Under the pieces are notes generated by a model. The model did not search any database. It was not told the origin of the DNA and saw only the letters and a program-made list of their open reading frames with translations. Source: a virus. From it: a stretch of 35,259 nucleotides of DNA. Below, one piece after another: positions 1,762 through 14,367 of this stretch (positions within the stretch are counted from its first letter, which is position 1; every line of letters begins with the position of its first letter). Both the position numbers and the translations under genes were made by a program. Location of the stretch: positions 1-35,259 of IMG/VR virus record IMGVR_UViG_3300017724_000023; one strand, written 5' to 3'.

Positions 1762-2166
1762 ATGACTGATGATGTTGAATCTCCTAAAGAAAAATCTGAA
1801 GGAGAATTATATAATGAAGAGCGAGTGAAAGTACTACAAGATGCATTGCGTGTTGACTATATTGAAAAATTCGATGTTTACGCTCAATTATTAATGGTAC
1901 AAAGAGAATTGGCTGAAGTTACAATAGCTAACAATAAGTTAGAAAAAGTTAATGGCTTATTATCTATGAACAACAAGGCTCTTACAAAAGAAATTGTTGA
2001 ATTGAAAGGCATTGCTAACGACTTAAAAGAAAAAATGAAAAAGTCAAGAGCAGACCTTAAAAAACAAAAAGAGATTTTTACTACCTCAGAACCATATACA
2101 GTTGAGGAAGAAGAAATTAAAGAAAAACCAAAACGCAAACCGCGAGTAAAAGTTAAAGAAGAATGA
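1762..2166 (+). CDS. Coiled-coil protein with basic C-terminal tail
   Basis: The 134-residue product has an acidic N-terminus (residues 1-22), then a long charged helix (about 35-110) with heptad-like leucines, consistent with a coiled coil. It ends in a very basic tail, EKPKRKPRVKVKEE. There is no enzyme motif. The strong site GAGGAAA lies ahead of the ATG. The stop overlaps the start of the next gene by four bases. Its position at the head of the late/virion block and its basic tail would fit a scaffold or DNA-contacting structural protein, but this is inference. Confidence 0.75.
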   Translation: MTDDVESPKEKSEGELYNEERVKVLQDALRVDYIEKFDVYAQLLMVQRELAEVTIANNKLEKVNGLLSMNNKALTKEIVELKGIANDLKEKMKKSRADLKKQKEIFTTSEPYTVEEEEIKEKPKRKPRVKVKEE

Positions 2167-3416
2167 AACGATTCTCAACATTTCTAACTGAAGATGCCCA
2201 AGGTAAGAACTTACACTTGGAACATCTTGAAGATGAAATATTAAATTTTGGAATTGGTGGAGCCAGAGGCTCTGTCAATTTTTTGCGGTCTTTACGAGAT
2301 ATGATGGCTGGAAACTCCCGTACGTCTATTAATATGACAGTAAAGTGGGATGGAGCTCCAGCTATTTTTGCGGGTGTAGATCCTTCTGATGGAAAATTCT
2401 TTGTAGCAAAAAAATCAGTGTTTAACAAAACACCACTTTTATATAAGACTGCAAGAGAAATAGATTCTGATGCAAGGTTACCCGCTCCACTAAAACCTAA
2501 ATTCAAGACTGCTTTAACAGAGTTTAGCAAATTAGGTATTACAAACGTCCTTCAAGGTGACTTGATGTTTACTTCTTCTGACCTAGAAACAGATAGGATA
2601 GATGGTCAGACGTACACAACATTTCAACCTAACACAATCGTTTACGCAATCCCCAAAGGTTCATTCTTAGAGAGAAAAATGAAATCTGCCAAGATCGGGG
2701 TGGTCTGGCATACTACCTATAAGGGAACGTCACTAGAAAACATGAAAGCATCTTTCGGAGCAGATACCAGAAGTCTTAGGAAACCTTCTTCTGTTTGGAT
2801 GGATGACGCAACATATAAAGATAGCAGTGGAACAGCCACATTTACTAAAGCAGAAACAGATCAAGTAACAGCTAAATTGTCTGAAGTTGGAAAAGCATTC
2901 AACAAAATATCATCTGCTGAATTAACAAAGTTTTTAAGAATACAAGCATCATTTGAAGGTAAATTTGTTGGTGCTGGTATAAAAACATATACAAATTCTA
3001 AAGTAAGAGTTGGACAAGAAATTACTAATCCTAGTGAACACGCAAAAGGTTATTTAACTTGGGTCGAAGAAAAATTCGACAAAGAACAGGAAAAAGTTAA
3101 AACTGATAAAACGAAGAAAACGATTGAGGACAGAAAAACAGCGACCCTCCGTGATCTACGTAAGTTGACAGACTTACTTGTAAACGTCATCATCTTCCAG
3201 AACTTATTAATATCTGCGAAGATGATGATAGTTTCCAAACTAAATAAAATAAAACAATTGGCTAATACATTTGTCAGAACTCCAACTGGATTCAAAGTAG
3301 TAAACCCAGAAGGGTATGTTGCTATTGACAGAACATCTGGTAGAGCAGTAAAACTAGTTGACAGAATGGAATTTAGTTACAACAACTTCACAGCAATCAA
3401 AGCATGGGACAGATAG
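2163..3416 (+). CDS. KxDG-motif protein (DUF6267-like), possible covalent nucleotidyltransferase or RNA-ligase fold
   Basis: The 417-residue protein resembles a family conserved in cyanophages and pelagiphages, which I recall as DUF6267 without assigned function. In the sequence, VKWDGAPAIFAG (residues 60-71) contains K61-x-D63-G64, the form of motif I in DNA/RNA ligases and capping enzymes. LQGDLMF (130-136) could be motif III, EGYVAI (383-388) motif IV and AVKLVDR (395-401) motif V. These occur in the expected order, with a long insertion between III and IV. The N-terminus MKRFSTFLTED resembles the T4 capsid-targeting peptide MKTYQEFIAE, with a possible prohead-protease site after LTE. Its start overlaps the previous stop by four bases. 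Catalysis is unproven. Confidence 0.82.
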   Translation: MKRFSTFLTEDAQGKNLHLEHLEDEILNFGIGGARGSVNFLRSLRDMMAGNSRTSINMTVKWDGAPAIFAGVDPSDGKFFVAKKSVFNKTPLLYKTAREIDSDARLPAPLKPKFKTALTEFSKLGITNVLQGDLMFTSSDLETDRIDGQTYTTFQPNTIVYAIPKGSFLERKMKSAKIGVVWHTTYKGTSLENMKASFGADTRSLRKPSSVWMDDATYKDSSGTATFTKAETDQVTAKLSEVGKAFNKISSAELTKFLRIQASFEGKFVGAGIKTYTNSKVRVGQEITNPSEHAKGYLTWVEEKFDKEQEKVKTDKTKKTIEDRKTATLRDLRKLTDLLVNVIIFQNLLISAKMMIVSKLNKIKQLANTFVRTPTGFKVVNPEGYVAIDRTSGRAVKLVDRMEFSYNNFTAIKAWDR

Positions 3417-3429
3417 TTTATTTTTCTGT

Positions 3430-3437
3430 TATAAATA
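3430..3437 (+). promoter_or_regulatory. T4-type late promoter TATAAATA
   Basis: An exact TATAAATA lies in the 57-base gap after the KxDG gene, 36 bases before the ATG at 3474. This octamer is the consensus late promoter of T4-like phages, read by host polymerase with phage gp55/gp33-type factors. No -35 hexamer is needed or seen. It would drive the nucleotidyltransferase, lysozyme and lipoprotein genes. Confidence 0.8.
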
Positions 3438-3473
3438 GTATCAAACGTACTAATTATTAGCAGAGAATAAACC

Positions 3474-4118
3474 ATGAAACTCCGAACAATCCACGAAGAA
3501 AGAGAAAAGCGAATAGTATTTGCTTTTGGTCGACTAAACCCTCCAACTGCTGGTCATAGCAAATTAGTTGACAAAGTAAGAAGTGAAGCCCAGAAGAGAA
3601 GGGCAGATCATCGTGTGATTGTGAGTCATTCTCAAGACAAACATAAAAATCCTCTTACCGCACAAGATAAAATAACTTATCTGAAAAGTATCCATCCAGG
3701 TACTAAATTTCTGGCATCTTCTAGAGCAGAACCACACTTCATTGCACACCTTAAAAAGATGAGTACGCAAGGATTTACTCATGTAGTAATGATTGCTGGG
3801 TCTGATAGAGTTGCAGAGTTTCAAAAAATAGCAGATAAATATAATGGTAAGGATTACACATTCAAAGAAATTTCAATAGTATCAGCCGGTGAAAGAGATC
3901 CAGACGCAGAAGGCGTTACTGGAATTAGTGGCACTAAAATGAGAACTTTTGTTAGCAACAATGACTTTGCATCATTTAAGAAAGGTCTTAATCCTAGAGC
4001 AACAGATGCTAGTGCTAAAAAGTTATTTAACGCGGTACGTAAAGGTATGCAACTTAAAGAGGGTCAAAGTCGCCCCTCTTTCTCAAGGTTCTTAAAAGAA
4101 CAGATAGGAACATTTTAA
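3474..4118 (+). CDS. HxGH-superfamily nucleotidyltransferase (NadM/cytidylyltransferase-like)
   Basis: Members transfer AMP or CMP to phosphorylated acceptors such as NMN. The signature FGRLNPPTAGH (residues 18-28) is the TxGH form of the nucleotide-binding motif, and ISGTKMR (151-157) is the matching ISxTxxR motif near the C-terminus. The core of about 160 residues has the usual length. The extra C-terminal tail PSFSRFLKE (201-209) resembles the capsid-targeting peptide found at the N-terminus of the upstream protein. The gene sits behind a late promoter and overlaps the lysozyme start by one base, so it is expressed late. That is odd for a metabolic enzyme. The acceptor substrate cannot be read from the sequence. 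Confidence 0.85.
   Translation: MKLRTIHEEREKRIVFAFGRLNPPTAGHSKLVDKVRSEAQKRRADHRVIVSHSQDKHKNPLTAQDKITYLKSIHPGTKFLASSRAEPHFIAHLKKMSTQGFTHVVMIAGSDRVAEFQKIADKYNGKDYTFKEISIVSAGERDPDAEGVTGISGTKMRTFVSNNDFASFKKGLNPRATDASAKKLFNAVRKGMQLKEGQSRPSFSRFLKEQIGTF
4056..4081 (+). other. Hairpin near the end of the nucleotidyltransferase gene, ahead of lysozyme
   Basis: AAAGAGGG (4056-4063) and CCCTCTTT (4074-4081) are perfect 8-base inverted repeats with a 10-base loop. There is no T-run after the stem, so it is unlikely to be a terminator. It lies 36 bases before the lysozyme start and could affect mRNA stability or lysozyme translation. Confidence 0.4.
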
Positions 4119-4564
4119 TGAATAGAGAAGCAGTTTTTGAACAACTAAAAATTGACGAAGGAGTAGAATATGTCATCTATAACGACCACCTCGGCTATCC
4201 AACCTTTGGAGTCGGTCACCTTGTCCTCGAAAGTGACGAGGAATTCGGAAGGGCAGTTGGAACTCCAGTTGACGAAGAAAGAGTCCGGGCGTGTTTTGAA
4301 CGAGACCTTGATACTGCCATCTCCGAGTGTAACACTCTATACGGAGAAGGGAACTTTGGAGAACTACCTGACACCGTACAGCAAATCTTGGTCAATATGA
4401 TGTTCAATATGGGCAGACCAAGGCTCAGTAAGTTTAAGAAAATGAATGCCGCTGTACTTGAAGGCGATTGGAAAACTGCCGCAGTTGAAGGTAGAGATTC
4501 TAGATGGTACGATCAAGTAACAAACAGGGCTGAAAGGTTAATGAAACGTTTGGAGGAAACATGA
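4118..4564 (+). CDS. e: T4-type lysozyme (endolysin, GH24)
   Basis: It cleaves the glycan strands of peptidoglycan at lysis. The N-terminus aligns by eye with T4 lysozyme. IDEGVEYVIYND holds Glu14 and Asp23, and YPTFGVGHL holds Thr29; these match the catalytic Glu11, Asp20 and Thr26 of T4. The C-terminal motif SRWYDQVTNRAERL matches the T4 SRWYNQTPNRA stretch. Length is 148 residues against 164 in T4. There is no signal peptide, so a holin is needed for release. The start overlaps the previous stop by one base, and the next gene starts inside its stop codon. Confidence 0.95.
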   Translation: MNREAVFEQLKIDEGVEYVIYNDHLGYPTFGVGHLVLESDEEFGRAVGTPVDEERVRACFERDLDTAISECNTLYGEGNFGELPDTVQQILVNMMFNMGRPRLSKFKKMNAAVLEGDWKTAAVEGRDSRWYDQVTNRAERLMKRLEET

Positions 4565-4935
4565 AAAAAGGAATTATTATTGTAGGAATTGTATTATCGC
4601 TTGCTGGTTGTGCCAATATTGGCAATCTTTTTGCTGATAAATTTGATAACGTAGAATATGGTAAACTAGTAGAACTTAATGTTGATGCTATTACCAGTGA
4701 GGGTAGATGTCCATTGTCACAAGACACTTATAAAAACTCTCTGTGGCTGAAGATATATAGTGCGGGTACGATGAACGATACTAGTACTGATCTTTACAAG
4801 GAGTTACATGGACTAGTTGAAGAGTTTTACAATAGAGAAAATCCTTCAGAAGTTTATTGTAAACTAAAATGGGAAAATATTGTTAAGGCAACAGATGATG
4901 CTATTGCTTTAACGGGATCACGCATCAAAAAATAA
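4561..4935 (+). CDS. Lipoprotein next to the lysozyme gene
   Basis: The 124-residue product has a classic lipoprotein signal: Lys at 2-3, a hydrophobic core at 4-13 and lipobox L14-A-G-C17. The residue after Cys is Ala, so outer-membrane sorting is expected. The mature part has further cysteines (Cys-Pro near 54 and Cys around 101) and no Pro-rich stretch. It overlaps the lysozyme stop by four bases behind a strong GGAGG. Adjacency to the endolysin suggests a lysis accessory such as an outer-membrane spanin, but it is larger and less Pro-rich than typical o-spanins. The signal is clear; the function is inferred. Confidence 0.8.
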   Translation: MKKGIIIVGIVLSLAGCANIGNLFADKFDNVEYGKLVELNVDAITSEGRCPLSQDTYKNSLWLKIYSAGTMNDTSTDLYKELHGLVEEFYNRENPSEVYCKLKWENIVKATDDAIALTGSRIKK

Positions 4936-4950
4936 TGAAGGAATAACATA

Positions 4951-5166
4951 ATGCAAGAAGAAGAATTATTAAAAGAGTACGAAGATAAACTTTTACAACT
5001 ACAGAGTTATCTAAACGAAGGTGATATTACTCGTAGTGAGTATGATGAGTTAATTGCTGATTTTTCTGACGTTGAGGCTATTCGTAGTAGTATCAAAGAT
5101 GAAAAATTGAAAATTCACGCAGAGACTATTGTTTCGGCACTCAGCAAGGTATTAGCTTTAGTTTAA
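4951..5166 (+). CDS. Small acidic helical protein
   Basis: The 71-residue product is mostly charged helix (MQEEELLKEYEDKLLQLQ...). A short stretch LNEGDITRSEYDELI resembles the turn of SHOCT-like oligomerisation motifs. The C-terminus is more hydrophobic (TIVSALSKVLALV). AAGGA precedes the start. It lies between the lipoprotein and the late promoter of the kinase-fusion gene. I do not recognise a family. Confidence 0.7.
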   Translation: MQEEELLKEYEDKLLQLQSYLNEGDITRSEYDELIADFSDVEAIRSSIKDEKLKIHAETIVSALSKVLALV

Positions 5167-5167
5167 T

Positions 5168-5175
5168 TATAAATA
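5168..5175 (+). promoter_or_regulatory. T4-type late promoter TATAAATA, abutting the next start codon
   Basis: An exact TATAAATA lies just five bases before the ATG at 5181. Late transcripts in T4 begin a few bases downstream of this box. The mRNA from here would therefore start at or next to the initiation codon, with no room for a ribosome-binding site. Confidence 0.7.
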
Positions 5176-5180
5176 ACCTT

Positions 5181-7094
5181 ATGGATAAAACATTCTTAGA
5201 TTTTATTGACCCTGTCCCACTTGAAGAGGGTATAAATGACCCTGGAATTTTCAAGGCAGTTTTCCTTGCTGGAGGACCAGGCAGTGGTAAGTCATTTATT
5301 GTGGGTCAAACTGGACTACAATCTTTTGGCTTGAAACTGATAAATTCTGATGATGCTTTCGAAAGAGCCTTAGCTAAAGTGGGCATGGAACCATCACCAG
5401 ACAATATATTTTCTAGCAAAGGTCAGTCTATCAGAGACAGAGCCAAACTTCTTACAAATAAAAGACAAGAACAATGGATAGATGGTAGGCTTGGTTTAGT
5501 AATTGATGGTACTGGTAAAGATTATCAAAAAATAAGCAATCAAGCAAATAAACTCAGATCAATTGGTTATGATGTTGCGATGATATTCGTCAACACTGAC
5601 TTAGAAACAGCACAAGCAAGAAACAAATCAAGACCCAGAACTCTTCCAGATAAAGTAGTAGCAGATTTGTGGAAAGATGTACAAAATAATATTGGTAGAT
5701 TTCAAAACTTGTTTGGTAGATATATGTTTATTGTTGATAACTCAGATGGTGCAAACTATCAGGGTGCCACCATGTCAGTCTACAGAAGAATTGGTGCATG
5801 GACAAGAGAGCCCGTTGCAAACCATAGAGCGAGAACATGGGTAAAAAGCCAGAAAAAATTACGTGGAATAAAAGAAGAAGACATAGGTAGAAACAGAACA
5901 ACAATGCGTAATCGTATTGGCAAGTCTTCAATGCAACGTAAAGCAGAAAAACGTAGGGCAAAACTTGCACAGTTAGCTCCTAAAGAGCCAGAAAATAAAT
6001 TAGCAGAAGATGAAGTTGATGAAGCCTGTTGGGTAGGTTGGAAACAGCAGGGCATGAAAAAGAAGGGGAAAAGAATTGTCCCGAATTGTGTCAAAGAAGA
6101 AGAACTTGATGAAGCACCAAGATGGATGCTTGATCCTCTTGCTAAAACAGTACATAGAAATAAGTACAATGTCGCCAAGAAAATACTAAAGCAAGTATAC
6201 GATAGAAAGAAAAGAGAAGGTGGTGGCAGGACCAGACATGGTATTGAGTGGTATGCCCTCAACGTTGCTGGTCAAGTATCTGATAAGATAGATGCAAGAA
6301 CTCTTGCTAATATGGTTAAAGAAGAATATGACTCAGATATTCACCATTGGGGAACTCCAGAAGGTACTCAACACTACAAAGATATGACTCCTGGTCAGGG
6401 CGACATAGAGTACAAACAAAACAACTCAGACGATGCAGTTTCAGATGCACCAAATGAATTTGAATTTTCAGAAGTAGAAATACTTCAGATGGAAGATGAA
6501 ATTAATAAAATGACATTCGATGATATGGTTGCTCTTGGAATGTATGACGAAGAAGAGTTGCAAGATTTTAAAGACATTGAAGAAATACCAGATTTTGATT
6601 TAGAATTGGAAGATGAATTAGAAGAACAAGTACTTGATGAAGTATTATCTGTTCAAGGTAGAATGAAGCGCAGATTTGCGGCTAGAAGAAATAGACAGAA
6701 ACTTAAAGTTGCTAGAATGAGAGCATCTAGAAGAGCCGCTGATCCAGCTAGAATTAAAAAGAGAGCGCAACGTGGTGCAAGAAACGTAATCAAGCAGAGA
6801 TTTGCTAGAGGTCGTGATGTAAGTAAGATGCCACCACAAGAGAAAGCACGTATCGAAGGCATGGCAAAAAGAATGGCACCTCTAGTAGCGAGATTAGCCG
6901 TTCGTATGATGCCACTAGTACGTAAGAACGAACTACAAAGAATTAAGAAAGGTGGCGGTGGTAAACCACAAGCCGCTAAGAAGTTTAAAATTACAAAAGG
7001 TGGTTCTGGTAGTAAGTATAAAGCTAAGAAGTTTAAAGTCAAAGCACCAAAAAAAGCTAAGCCAGCACCTAAAGCTAAGGCTAAAAAGAAATGA
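5181..7094 (+). CDS. P-loop kinase fused to head-internal structural modules
   Basis: Residues 28-38 read FLAGGPGSGKS, a Walker A motif. With VIDGTGK (107-113) and the following helical region this looks like a polynucleotide-kinase or zeta-toxin type P-loop domain (about 20-205). The rest is unlike a kinase. DEACWVGWKQQG (280-291) with PNCV (301-304) is a module I recall from many marine T4-like structural proteins. Then comes an acidic region (about 430-485), an Arg/Lys-rich region (about 490-595), and a histone-like Lys/Ala/Pro tail. The N-terminus MDKTFLDFIDP is loosely like capsid-targeting peptides. No Shine-Dalgarno site precedes the ATG, which sits directly at a late promoter. A packaged enzyme is a reasonable guess; its substrate is unknown. 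Confidence 0.85.
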   Translation: MDKTFLDFIDPVPLEEGINDPGIFKAVFLAGGPGSGKSFIVGQTGLQSFGLKLINSDDAFERALAKVGMEPSPDNIFSSKGQSIRDRAKLLTNKRQEQWIDGRLGLVIDGTGKDYQKISNQANKLRSIGYDVAMIFVNTDLETAQARNKSRPRTLPDKVVADLWKDVQNNIGRFQNLFGRYMFIVDNSDGANYQGATMSVYRRIGAWTREPVANHRARTWVKSQKKLRGIKEEDIGRNRTTMRNRIGKSSMQRKAEKRRAKLAQLAPKEPENKLAEDEVDEACWVGWKQQGMKKKGKRIVPNCVKEEELDEAPRWMLDPLAKTVHRNKYNVAKKILKQVYDRKKREGGGRTRHGIEWYALNVAGQVSDKIDARTLANMVKEEYDSDIHHWGTPEGTQHYKDMTPGQGDIEYKQNNSDDAVSDAPNEFEFSEVEILQMEDEINKMTFDDMVALGMYDEEELQDFKDIEEIPDFDLELEDELEEQVLDEVLSVQGRMKRRFAARRNRQKLKVARMRASRRAADPARIKKRAQRGARNVIKQRFARGRDVSKMPPQEKARIEGMAKRMAPLVARLAVRMMPLVRKNELQRIKKGGGGKPQAAKKFKITKGGSGSKYKAKKFKVKAPKKAKPAPKAKAKKK

Positions 7095-8014
7095 AGACTT
7101 ATGAAGAATTAGCAGAAGACCTTAGAAAATGGTTTGGTAAAGGTAAGCAAGGCGATTGGGTACGTGTAGGTACCGATGGCAAAATTAAGGGTGATTGTGC
7201 TAGAGAGCCAGGGGAAGGCAAACCAAAATGTATGCCTCGATCAAAAGCACATAGCATGGATAAAGATGATAGAGCATCTGCCGCTAGAAGAAAAAGAGCA
7301 AAAGATCCAGTAGCAGATAGATCGGGTAAAGGTGGAAAGCCCGTTATGGTTTCTACAGATAAAAAAGAGGAGTTTGTTTTGAAAACTTTTGATGAGTTTA
7401 TTTCAGAAGGAAATAAAAAAGGATTGTGGGCTAATATCAGAGCAAAAAAGGCTCGTGGTGAAGCACCCGCAAAGAAGGGTGATAAAGATTACCCAGATGA
7501 ATTAGAAAAGATTCGTGAAGATTATGAACTCTTTTTAGAAAAGAATGTTCCAACAAAGCCTGCATTGTGGTCTAAATACAAGTCACAAGCAAAATCAAAG
7601 TTTGATGTATATCCATCTGCATATGCAAATGGTTGGGCTGCCAAGCAATACAAGAAAGCTGGCGGTGGTTGGAAATCAGTAAGCGAAGAAGTTTGTTGTG
7701 ATGATTGTGCCGCAATGAATGAAGATTTGATATCAGAAGATATTCTAATCATGGAAGAAGGCGAGAAAAAGAAAGTTTCGCTAAATAAAGTTCAACGTGG
7801 TGGTTCAAAGAAATTTTACGTATATGTCAAAAATGCAAAAGGCAATGTAGTTAAAGTTTCATTTGGTGATCCAAACATGGAAATTAAACGAGATGACCCA
7901 AAAGCAAGAGCAAGTTTTAGAGCCAGACATGACTGTGCAAACAAAAAAGACAGAACTAAAGCAGGATACTGGAGTTGCAGACAGTGGCGTGGTGGTGCGA
8001 AAGTCGAGTCTTAA
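7091..8014 (+). CDS. Modular head-internal or structural protein with capsid-targeting-like N-terminus
   Basis: The 307-residue protein begins MKTYEELAED, close to the T4 internal-protein targeting peptide MKTYQEFIAE. A second similar segment, KTFDEFISEG, is at 98-107. Three modules follow. WVRVGTDGKIKGDC with KCMPRSKA (23-53) is one. KFDVYPSAYANGWA (170-183), of the type I recall as DUF5872, is the second. FGDPNMEIKRDDP through RARHDC and YWSC (258-296) is the third and is common at the C-terminus of marine T4-like structural proteins. Conserved cysteines occur in each module and as VCCDDC (201-206). It overlaps the kinase-fusion stop by four bases and is transcribed with it. Confidence 0.82.
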   Translation: MKTYEELAEDLRKWFGKGKQGDWVRVGTDGKIKGDCAREPGEGKPKCMPRSKAHSMDKDDRASAARRKRAKDPVADRSGKGGKPVMVSTDKKEEFVLKTFDEFISEGNKKGLWANIRAKKARGEAPAKKGDKDYPDELEKIREDYELFLEKNVPTKPALWSKYKSQAKSKFDVYPSAYANGWAAKQYKKAGGGWKSVSEEVCCDDCAAMNEDLISEDILIMEEGEKKKVSLNKVQRGGSKKFYVYVKNAKGNVVKVSFGDPNMEIKRDDPKARASFRARHDCANKKDRTKAGYWSCRQWRGGAKVES

Positions 8015-8258: not shown

Positions 8259-9872
8259 ATGGCAGTAGACGTTTTATTGTTTACGGGTATTTCCGCTTAC
8301 TCGTATGAAGTAAGTGAGATGGGTACCGAGCCATCATACGAAATGGCAATGCGAACTTCTGGTACGTACCGAGTTGCCACATACCTCAGAGAAACATATG
8401 ATCTTGATGTAGAAGTAGTTGACTATCTACACTCTTGGACATATGAAGAACTAGTCGAAATAGTCAAAAGCAGAGTAGACTCCAATACCAAAATGGTAGG
8501 TGTTGGTGGAATCTTCTACTTATCCACTCCCAATATAGTACAACTTTTTGAATACGTCAAGAAAAACTATGACGTAATAACAATAGCTGGTAGCCAAGGA
8601 TTATGGTCAATTGCTGGTATACCAAATATAGACTATTGTATTGTTGGATATGGTGAACTGGGTGTCGGTGCAGTACTTGAAGGTAATCCAGAATACGAAG
8701 AAAAAGAAATATATCCTGGCGCACCAAAAATTAAAGTCATAGATTGTATGGAAACGAAAAAGTATAATGCATTTCCATGGCAAAACATAGGCATAGAATA
8801 TCAAAAAAGAGATTTTGTAAGACCAGAAGAAACATTATCATTTGAGACTTCACGTGGTTGTCGTTTTCAGTGTGCATACTGTAACTTTCCAATTCTTGGT
8901 GTGAAGGATGACCATACCAGATCAGCAGAAGACTTTGAGCGAGATATAAAGCGCAACTATGATAAATGGGGTACAACAGATTATATTGTCACGGATGATA
9001 CCTTTAATGATTACACGGATAAGATAACAAAGTATGCAGATGTAGTACAGCAATTACCATTTGAAGTAAATTTTACTGGTTACATACGTGCTGACCTGAT
9101 GACACAGCGCAAAGGCGATCTAGAACAACTGGCTAGAATGCGATTCAATAGCCATTTATATGGAATTGAATCTACTAACAGAGATTCTGCAAAAGCAATG
9201 GGTAAAGGTGGGGACCCTAAAAAGATTCTTGAGGGTATATTAGAAGCAAAAGAATACTTTAAAAAAGAAAATGGGTTTTATAGAGGTGAGATGAGTTTTA
9301 TATGGGGATTGCCAGATGAGACAAGAGAAACTTTAGATTGGACATTTGATTGGATAGATAAGAATTGGCAAAGAGAAGCAATGTCTATGTTCGATTTAAG
9401 TATACCTATGGCAGGACCACACTCTATAATTCGCAGTAATATACTGTCCACAAACCTTGATAAATACAATTATAGAAGGGCACAACCAATAGAGATCGAC
9501 AATATTGATGCAGAGTTTCAAGCAATTCTAGATGATCCAAATGTTGATGATTTCAACAAGAATAGAATGATTAAAATGAAGCCTGATCCAAATAATCCTA
9601 TGTACCATATGCATCAGGTACTTTGGAAAAATGAATATTGGGATGTTATAACTGCGTGGTTAGGGTGCCAACAAGAGTTGTATGGACATAAAAGATACTG
9701 GGAAAGAGGTATTCCAATCTTCAATCAAGCCAACTGGACGTCGGTAGGGTACAAAAAACAAGATTTATTAAAGTCATTTAGTGAGTTGGGTACAACAATG
9801 CACCCACCAGTAGAAGAAAGGAAGAAAGTAATTGAAGAATACAAGCATAAAAAACTTTCCTGGGTATCGTAG
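8259..9872 (+). CDS. Radical SAM protein with cobalamin-binding-like N-terminal domain
   Basis: The SAM iron-sulfur motif is in SRGCRFQCAYCNF, with Cys201, Cys205 and Cys208 (CxxxCxxC). Residues 1-165 form an alternating alpha/beta region (MVGVGGIFYLS, VITIAGSQG, DYCIVGYGE) like the B12-binding domain that precedes many radical SAM cores. The cobalamin-ligand DxHxxG motif is not seen, so B12 binding may be lost. GIEST and EMSFIWGLPDET are typical later strands of the radical SAM barrel. The architecture suggests methyl or methylthio transfer or another C-H modification. It lies between structural genes, so the substrate could be a virion protein, but nothing in the sequence names it. Confidence 0.87.
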   Translation: MAVDVLLFTGISAYSYEVSEMGTEPSYEMAMRTSGTYRVATYLRETYDLDVEVVDYLHSWTYEELVEIVKSRVDSNTKMVGVGGIFYLSTPNIVQLFEYVKKNYDVITIAGSQGLWSIAGIPNIDYCIVGYGELGVGAVLEGNPEYEEKEIYPGAPKIKVIDCMETKKYNAFPWQNIGIEYQKRDFVRPEETLSFETSRGCRFQCAYCNFPILGVKDDHTRSAEDFERDIKRNYDKWGTTDYIVTDDTFNDYTDKITKYADVVQQLPFEVNFTGYIRADLMTQRKGDLEQLARMRFNSHLYGIESTNRDSAKAMGKGGDPKKILEGILEAKEYFKKENGFYRGEMSFIWGLPDETRETLDWTFDWIDKNWQREAMSMFDLSIPMAGPHSIIRSNILSTNLDKYNYRRAQPIEIDNIDAEFQAILDDPNVDDFNKNRMIKMKPDPNNPMYHMHQVLWKNEYWDVITAWLGCQQELYGHKRYWERGIPIFNQANWTSVGYKKQDLLKSFSELGTTMHPPVEERKKVIEEYKHKKLSWVS

Positions 9873-13465: not shown

Positions 13466-13849
13466 ATGATAGAATTGAATGAAGATACTTTCTTGGTTTA
13501 TGCACTTAAAAATTATAACAATCCAGAATGTTCTGGTATAGATGATTTTGAAGAAGATACTAAGAGATTTAAGTACCTAAAAAGATTATTTAATAGATAT
13601 GAAAGTAGCGGTGTACTCAAAGACAGATTGATTATCAATCATTTGATAGTCTTATACAATGTATTTGATAAATCTGCTACATCAATGTTGTTTTTTAAAA
13701 TAGATAAAGAGCATTGGTCCATATTGAAAACATTTTTGGTATTCTTAAATAGAATGCCAATGGAACAAATTGTGACTGGTGGTGTTAAGATAGAAGAAAC
13801 AGATATACCACTAAATTTTGAGATCATAAATTTACTTAGGAATATTTAA
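13466..13849 (+). CDS. Conserved small phage protein of the structural block
   Basis: The 127-residue product is a compact helical protein with motifs KRFKYLKRLFNRY, RLIINHLIVLYNVF and SMLFFKIDKEHW. I recall close relatives in many marine T4-like phages, always beside structural genes and with no assigned role. No clear ribosome site is visible, and TATAAAGA at 13449-13456 is a weak late-promoter variant. Its stop overlaps the next start by one base. It may act in virion assembly. Confidence 0.78.
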   Translation: MIELNEDTFLVYALKNYNNPECSGIDDFEEDTKRFKYLKRLFNRYESSGVLKDRLIINHLIVLYNVFDKSATSMLFFKIDKEHWSILKTFLVFLNRMPMEQIVTGGVKIEETDIPLNFEIINLLRNI

Positions 13850-14367
13850 TGTCACGTACAATTGATGCACTAATTGTCTACCGAATTCTTAGATTGTTCG
13901 CAACTAAGATTGAGGACTTTGATGCGTATAAATTGGGTGTCATTGATGCTAATGGTAAAAAATTAAGAAATCCTAAGACAGAAGAAGAACGCAACTCTTG
14001 GACAATGCTGACTCGTTTTGTTCTTAAAGTTAAGTCTTCATTGTTAAAATCTTCTGATATGAATGCAAGAAGATTCTTGACATTTGCCGCCGCAGTTGCT
14101 ATACTGAGAGAACATGGCGAAGAAGCAGAAGATAACCTCGATCTACTAGAATTGTATATGCAAGATGAAAATGTTATTAAAGAAGCCACTTTACTAGAAG
14201 ATCATAACCTTATGTCATTTAAGTCATTTCTCACAGACGAAGCCGCAATGTCAGTGGGAGCAGGTGGTATTGATGGCATTGGAATAGGTCCTAAGGGTGA
14301 ACCGGGCAGAGATCCAGTACTGATGCCCATGAACCGAAGAAAGAAGAAGAAGAAAAATGCCAGTTGA
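13849..14367 (+). CDS. Structural-block protein with collagen-like GPKGEPG tail
   Basis: The 172-residue protein has a helical body (MSRTIDALIVYRILRLF, then EEERNSWTMLTRFVLKVKSSLL). A C-terminal segment SVGAGGIDGIGIGPKGEPG is of a kind seen in several marine T4-like virion proteins. It ends in a basic run RRKKKKKNAS. The segment KSFLTDEAAM resembles the targeting or cleavage peptides of other proteins in this block. It overlaps both neighbours (one base and eleven bases). It is probably virion-associated or an assembly factor. Confidence 0.75.
   Translation: MSRTIDALIVYRILRLFATKIEDFDAYKLGVIDANGKKLRNPKTEEERNSWTMLTRFVLKVKSSLLKSSDMNARRFLTFAAAVAILREHGEEAEDNLDLLELYMQDENVIKEATLLEDHNLMSFKSFLTDEAAMSVGAGGIDGIGIGPKGEPGRDPVLMPMNRRKKKKKNAS

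Follow-up and report, generated by a model that had tools for sequence, protein, structure and literature searches.

The window analysed here, a 35,259-nucleotide stretch of DNA from IMG/VR (record IMGVR_UViG_3300017724_000023), is a fragment (35 kb) of the genome of a marine T4-like myovirus. The block of genes at positions 2163-8014 begins with a DUF6267 protein and a nucleotidyltransferase and closes with a P-loop kinase-like protein and a modular Lys-rich protein; a lysozyme and two small proteins are encoded in between. Four of these proteins carry a short motif resembling the capsid-targeting sequence (CTS) of the T4 internal proteins (IPs), and we consider it very likely that the motif acts as a T4-type head tag in this phage group. 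In all likelihood it functions like the T4 CTS and can be placed at either end of a protein. A set of ready-to-use enzymes probably travels with the DNA of these phages, since T4-type tags are found on enzymes and since relatives of one of the enzymes, together with a module of another of the proteins, have been detected in virions by mass spectrometry. We are less sure that the enzymes are then delivered to the next host than that the motif is a head tag. The nearest isolates that we found are the Methylophilales phages Melnitz, in which the DUF6267 protein is 65% identical to that of the window.

The CTS of the T4 internal proteins IPI, IPII and IPIII, which gp21 processes, is characterised by the register M-K-T-[FY]-x-E-F-I-x-E and an (L/I)xE site; IPIII begins MKTYQEFIAE. 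Mutagenesis of the T4 CTS is reported to have shown that targeting depends mainly on residues 4 and 7 and processing on residues 8 and 10 (PMC9026906). A preliminary description of the window had listed five terminal or internal strings of this kind, and all five are present in the translated window. Two of them reproduce the T4 register exactly: the start of the DUF6267 protein, MKRFSTFLTED, which aligns with MKTYQEFIAE, and the internal copy KTFDEFISEG of the modular protein. The other three stand with qualifications. The start of the modular protein, MKTYEELAED, is a weak match that fits only the shorter Y4-x-x-L7-x-E9 form found in long nucleotidyltransferases (MKTFKDIRE). The nucleotidyltransferase was said to end in PSFSRFLKE; SFSRFLKE indeed lies near its C-terminus (residues 202-209), but the protein ends FLKEQIGTF and the motif stops five residues short of the terminus. 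In the P-loop protein, described as starting MDKTFLDFIDP, FxxF[I] is present but displaced by one residue, and the (L/I)xE site, LEE, is separate (MDKTFLDFIDPVPLEE followed by G), a layout identical to that of T4 IPI (MKTFKEFTSTTTPVSTITE). The strict motif [FY]xx[FY][IL]xE has three matches among the predicted proteins of the window, a single copy in each of three of the four tagged proteins. Although the tagged genes had been called adjacent, and do share one block, the lysozyme and the two small proteins between them (4118-5166) have no terminal tag. Late promotion, which had been ascribed to all of them, holds for the nucleotidyltransferase and P-loop genes: the late-promoter-like sequence TATAAATA occurs six times on the plus strand and once on the minus strand of the window, but was not found directly upstream of the genes at 2163 or 7091. 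Coordinates are given in Table 1.

Table 1. Features of the tagged gene block (positions in the window)
Feature	Position	Strand	Remarks
DUF6267 protein, 417 amino acids, PF19782	2163..3416	+	Pfam E 5e-99
DUF6267 N-terminal tag MKRFSTFLTE	2163..2192	+	F4, F7, L8, E10; putative cleavage after LTE
Late-promoter-like TATAAATA	3430..3437	+	precedes nucleotidyltransferase gene
HIGH-type nucleotidyltransferase (cytidylyltransferase/NMNAT-like)	3474..4118	+	PF01467 E 7e-6; phrog_3041 E 8e-66
Nucleotidyltransferase C-terminal tag FSRFLKE	4080..4100	+	residues 203-209 of 214; kept near C-terminus in short-form homologues
Late-promoter-like TATAAATA	5168..5175	+	5 nucleotides upstream of P-loop ATG
P-loop kinase-like protein (zeta toxin/AAA_33/PNK-like fold)	5181..7094	+	Pfam; basic, modular C-terminal extension
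P-loop split N-terminal tag MDKTFLDFIDPVPLEE	5181..5228	+	targeting half FLDFI; cleavage half LEE (residues 14-16) before GINDP
Modular Lys-rich protein	7091..8014	+	DUF5872-like FDVYPSAYANGW module and KKFYVYVKN/RARHDC module
Weak N-terminal tag MKTYEELAE	7091..7117	+	short form Yxx[L]xE
Internal tag KTFDEFISE before G	7382..7408	+	residues 98-106, exact register, between two modules

An alignment of homologues, which the preliminary description had proposed as a check, showed that the termini are conserved and that (L/I)xE is kept. The DUF6267 set comprised 80 homologues from IMG/VR, and in 61 of the 61 distinct sequences (L/I)xE lies at most 10 residues ahead of the conserved core GKNLHLEH (GKNLHLEHLED in the window), compared with 5.8% for other stretches. 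The first residues of these proteins are variable, Fxx[FYL] usually precedes (L/I)xE, and E10 is invariant across 27 aligned sequences that range from the window to HTVC008M. Among distinct N-termini of P-loop homologues, 47 of 48 have (L/I)xE immediately before G[VILP][NY]DP, against a fixed-position rate of 0.7% elsewhere in them; the middle residue of the site is variable, as is the length of the spacer to the FxxF part. The residues to which targeting and processing are assigned in T4 are thus the residues conserved here, which supports a T4-type CTS.

Both proteins that were modelled with AlphaFold2 place the tag outside the confidently folded domain. The DUF6267 model has a moderate predicted local distance difference test score (pLDDT) of 76, with residues 1-17 below 50, and found no fold match in the PDB. 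With a view to the covalent nucleotidyltransferase/ligase superfamily, this protein carries a VKWDGAP (KxDG) motif and a later EG[YF]V, but no PDB fold and no profile matched it. Residues 1-233 of the P-loop protein were modelled with a pLDDT of 86; Foldseek matched the model to adenylate kinase (5e-7), zeta toxin (2e-6) and bacterial polynucleotide kinase (2e-6), and a sequence search against the PDB gave no matches. Together with its Walker A motif GGPGSGKS, this identifies a predicted P-loop kinase of the zeta toxin/PNK-like type, to which we assign no substrate.

The nucleotidyltransferase, which contains the motif GRLNPPTAGH and had no matches in a sequence search against the PDB, provides a different kind of evidence. 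Its short-form homologues end SFSQFLRG, SFTSFLKG, SFASFIQE or similar and mostly lack an N-terminal leader, and its long-form homologues begin MKTFKDIREA, MKKFSEIIEA or FNEYITEAK. The tag therefore switches ends within one family, indicating that it acts as an address tag and not as part of the fold.

Outside the window, the strict motif is biased towards N-termini. In Melnitz it occurs five times in 45,221 residues, and three of these occurrences are at protein residues 4-7, where 0.08 would be expected. Among 257 proteins of T4, used as a control, strict N-terminal matches were limited to ipII, ipIII and 61.1. The motif was present 2-9 residues after the ATG in 102 distinct sequences from the loci examined, vs. 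four for the reversed motif. When all IMG/VR contigs were searched for M-K-x-F-x-x-F-[IL/M]-x-E behind a late promoter, at least 120 places were found, a total that is a lower bound, whereas a scrambled pattern of the same bases matched once; the Tyr-4 form of the combined pattern gave 92 matches. The matches listed include 74 distinct tagged proteins, and the positions left free or partly free by the search pattern lean toward the T4 sequence (S/T at position 3 in 54, I at position 8 in 50 and A/S at P1' in 29). Glucosaminidase, ADP-ribosyltransferase, GNAT acetyltransferase, methyltransferase-like, S-adenosylmethionine (SAM) lyase, kinase and phosphatase-like proteins are among the tagged families in these matches.

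Several individual proteins were observed in the course of these searches. T4 gene 61.1 (L287:18966-19130), annotated in the record only as hypothetical, encodes 54 amino acids and begins with a perfect tag, MKTFKEFIKED. One tagged protein (L344:4968-5669) has an ADP-ribosyltransferase domain (PF03496, E 4e-12) and functionally recalls T4 Alt. A RimK-like ATP-grasp enzyme of Melnitz (L083:82-1131) begins MTQKFSQFITEE, a strict tag, and a GNAT acetyltransferase-like protein in a 178,563-base record (L332:1201-1593) begins MKTFDEFLTEG. A position weight matrix trained on DUF6267 N-termini alone failed to rank the T4 IPs, which its lack of Tyr at position 4 probably explains; the same matrix placed gp154, gp13, gp14 and gp6 of cyanophage S-CREM2 near the top.

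Published virion proteomes link the tag to phage particles in relatives. S-CREM2 has 219 proteins, of which 52 are reported in the virion (PMC10665884), and in S-SCSM1 48 of 282 are flagged as virion proteins in the record (PMC9602691). Exactly three S-CREM2 proteins have a strict N-terminal tag, a SAM hydrolase, a kinase and the cytidylyltransferase (gp6, gp14 and gp154), and all three are virion proteins; they belong to six virion proteins that the authors single out as non-structural (PMC10665884). The only strict N-terminal tag in S-SCSM1 is on ORF91 (L291:38819-40048), the NMNAT-like counterpart of the window's nucleotidyltransferase, which is likewise a virion protein. All four strictly tagged proteins of the two phages are therefore enzymes listed in virions (stratified exact p = 0.002). 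A definition of the tag at any end gave p-values of 0.003 and 0.036, which are supporting only, as it was fixed after S-CREM2 gp12 and S-SCSM1 ORF93 had been seen. ORFs 89-93, flanking the S-SCSM1 NMNAT gene, are all virion-flagged; a 69-amino-acid S-SCSM1 virion protein ends KRTFKEFLEYIE; and the S-CREM2 virion protein gp160 has a module like the DUF5872-like FDVYPSAYANGW module of the window's modular protein. A putative cytidylyltransferase (T4-GC190) is also reported from S-SM1 virions by Sullivan et al. (PMC3037559). Neither of the outcomes that the preliminary description had named as contrary to packaging, unconserved termini or an absence of these proteins from virions, was found, with homologues of the nucleotidyltransferase and of the modular protein's module being listed as virion proteins by mass spectrometry.

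The large S-CREM2 virion protein gp12 (L086:7704-10313), annotated as a Cas9-like nuclease and among the authors' six, has LRFASFMAE near its start and KTFRDFLN at its end, and no Pfam domain was found in it at E 0.001. It contains a AERLGLVSDGHG...VARTVNGELVF module that is also found behind the tag in NMNAT-type proteins. A module of the form KKLGL..DGHG.W.D..GEFVAKT..GKLKF follows the tag in the NMNAT-type proteins S-SCSM1 ORF91 and those at L321, L313, L320, L330, L360, L367, L368 and L376, and is present in gp12 as well; it may be a second head-related domain.

A gp21-type prohead protease is encoded by five of six long IMG/VR relatives, including the closest to the window (165 kb, G001), and by Melnitz; a gp21-type gene was not identified in the window, itself a fragment. 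The gp21 C-termini of relatives and isolates read VFSSFLDRLSKI, VFESFMKRLSKI, EYKNFLSLIKNK, FAKFLSKL and LFNDFLNSL. In the relatives, gp21 thus ends in the Fxx[FL][LM] pattern that also marks the C-terminal cargo tag, so a single docking site probably serves both the protease and its cargo. Reviews are reported to suspect that gp21 propeptides target the protease to the core (PMC9026906; compare PMC5694885), and the Fxx[FL][LM] end is a candidate for the concrete sequence.

We propose that the tag, with the consensus MK[ST]FKEFITE followed by A, would be a short disordered or weakly helical segment presenting Phe/Tyr and Phe/Leu three residues apart. It would sit at the N-terminus of the DUF6267 and P-loop proteins, near the C-terminus of the nucleotidyltransferase and between modules of the modular protein. 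During head assembly late in infection it would dock on the prohead core, so that the fused protein is trapped inside; a gp21-type protease would then cut after (L/I)xE and release the enzyme, and at the next infection the enzyme would exit together with the DNA. The preliminary description had suggested packaged and injected enzymes. Conserved tags and virion-listed homologues support this suggestion in part; from them we infer that the proteins are packaged in this phage, that these sites are cleaved and, most tentatively, that the enzymes are injected.

Some observations weigh against packaged, tagged enzymes. The homologue data come from CsCl-purified particles, for which the authors name contamination as an alternative, and the S-CREM2 nucleotidyltransferase was detected in virions by only three peptides. 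No virion proteome was found for either this phage or Melnitz, nor any direct virion evidence for the DUF6267 or the P-loop protein, and the data used showed no cleaved termini. A tagged 106-amino-acid S-SCSM1 protein (MKTFKQFMSE; L298:44215-44535) is encoded amid virion genes and is not virion-flagged, making it a test case: either a missed detection or a false positive of the rule. Some homologues have lost FxxF and kept LxE (MISLMENKAGKN; MYNDLLVEDKN in HTVC008M), so loss of the tag is tolerated in parts of the family. Finally, the sequences counted in all of these comparisons share ancestry, and the counts are hence not independent events.

Cleavage could also extend to the linkers of the modular fusions, which would then be polyproteins cut by gp21 into separate effectors within the head. 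We regard this extension of the head-tag explanation as possible but doubtful. The modules are found either singly, with a tag of their own, or strung together in many different orders; KKFFVYVKN, for example, also stands alone behind the N-terminal tag MKKFKQYIAE (locus L153). Relative to shuffled sequences, [LI]xE is enriched 1.8-fold in nucleotidyltransferase extensions and 1.55-fold in modular proteins and is depleted (0.31) in the P-loop core. We rejected this enrichment as proof of cutting, however, since E.[LI] is as enriched in the modular proteins, and it is not specific to linkers, as [LI]xE is also raised (1.63) in the nucleotidyltransferase core.

An alternative is that the tagged proteins reside in the head as structural components or associate with its core: they would use the same docking peptide but stay in the capsid or core debris, without being injected as enzymes. 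The same C-terminal motif on gp21, itself a core protein, would fit such a role, as would the very basic, low-complexity tails of the modular and P-loop proteins, which could simply bind packaged DNA. Nevertheless, we consider it unlikely: the catalytic motifs GGPGSGK and GRLNPPTAGH are kept, the SAM lyase, ADP-ribosyltransferase, glucosaminidase and kinase among the tagged relatives would be implausible building blocks, and the T4 IPs and Alt are reported to be ejected into the cell (PMC5694885, PMC3012670).

It is much less probable that the motif docks on a different partner, for example the DNA sliding clamp, and that detection in virions reflects carry-over. The C-terminal forms SFSRFLKE and FSSFLDRL superficially resemble clamp-binding ends, and T4 gp55, gp33 and gp43 have SLDFLYE, TLDFLL and SLDFLFG at or near their ends. 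Those peptides, however, are L-D-F-L without a Phe three residues before, and the Melnitz polymerase ends TTLEDFFG. Clamp binding would explain neither (L/I)xE nor the N-terminal form, which agrees with the mutagenised T4 CTS at each residue; the virion association of tagged proteins also speaks against it. Common descent of the proteins, or chance, is scarcely credible as the source of the N-terminal likeness, for even though several tagged genes adjoin and share modules, the bodies of the 68 proteins of at least 70 amino acids among the matches listed form 43 clusters without detectable similarity, the tag switches ends inside one family, and the scrambled control already contradicts it.

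Head tags of this kind extend a known principle. CTS use on diverse T-even internal proteins is reported as established (PMC3012670), but those of T4 are small proteins, IPI and IPIII being anti-defence proteins, whereas the cargo here consists of enzymes and modular fusions, and the tags, unlike the CTSs of the T4 IPs, are also near the C-terminus and internal. Pfam and PHROG scans of the window's proteins found no internal-protein family, and no direct comparison with the T4 IPs was made. T4 Alt, a head-packaged enzyme with N- and C-terminal propeptides reported to be cut at ITE-6 and LTE-619 (PMC5694885), is also comparable: here too the head carries an enzyme that has a short propeptide at its N-terminus, is cleaved by gp21 and has a C-terminal propeptide. 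Its N-terminus, MELITELFDE, differs from the Fxx[FY][IL]xE form, and no Alt-like protein was seen in the 2163-8014 block. The N-terminus of P1 DarB and the propeptides of giant phages such as SPN3US are likewise described as terminal signals that load proteins into heads, but the Dar proteins reportedly share no common consensus, and most giant-phage propeptides are described as far longer, with other cleavage motifs. Polyvalent proteins, described as fusions of several domains that phages are presumed to inject along with their DNA (cited in PMC7824862), would be comparable; here the modules are small and accompanied by head tags and a T4-type protease site.

Two further genes of the window were noted. 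A radical SAM protein immediately downstream of the block (8259-9872) has no tag, and a 172-amino-acid protein with a basic C-terminus (13849-14367) has an internal FKSFLTDE near residue 124. We also weighed an RNA-repair kit composed of the KxDG protein, the kinase and the nucleotidyltransferase, and the evidence falls short of it.

In the literature searched, which left most subscription journals outside, we found no description of a CTS widely used on the enzymes of marine T4-like phages, of a C-terminal CTS or of a CTS on the protease, and the sole text on capsid targeting that also mentions cyanophages was a T4 review. The CTS itself is known; what appears new, within this literature, is its occurrence in marine T4-like phages, on enzymes, at the C-terminus and on the protease. 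It offers a mechanism for the puzzling presence of NMNAT-like nucleotidyltransferases and similar enzymes in purified cyanophage particles: the enzymes of S-CREM2 (gp154) and S-SCSM1 (ORF91) are of the same kind as that of the window, S-SM1 also has a putative virion cytidylyltransferase, and the passages on virion enzymes in the reports on these three phages give no targeting mechanism. More broadly, and more tentatively, we see a real if not quite even prospect that T4-like phages beyond the coliphages have a general cargo system, in which an interchangeable tag at either end or between modules, shared with the protease, would load dozens of unrelated enzyme families into the head, where the protease would cut them loose, and cut concatenated modules apart, for delivery with the DNA. 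The sequence rule predicts from genomes alone which proteins of T4-like phages are likely to ride in the head, and during the first minutes of infection the tagged enzymes could plausibly act on host defence, transcription, or the pools of nicotinamide adenine dinucleotide (NAD) and of nucleotides.

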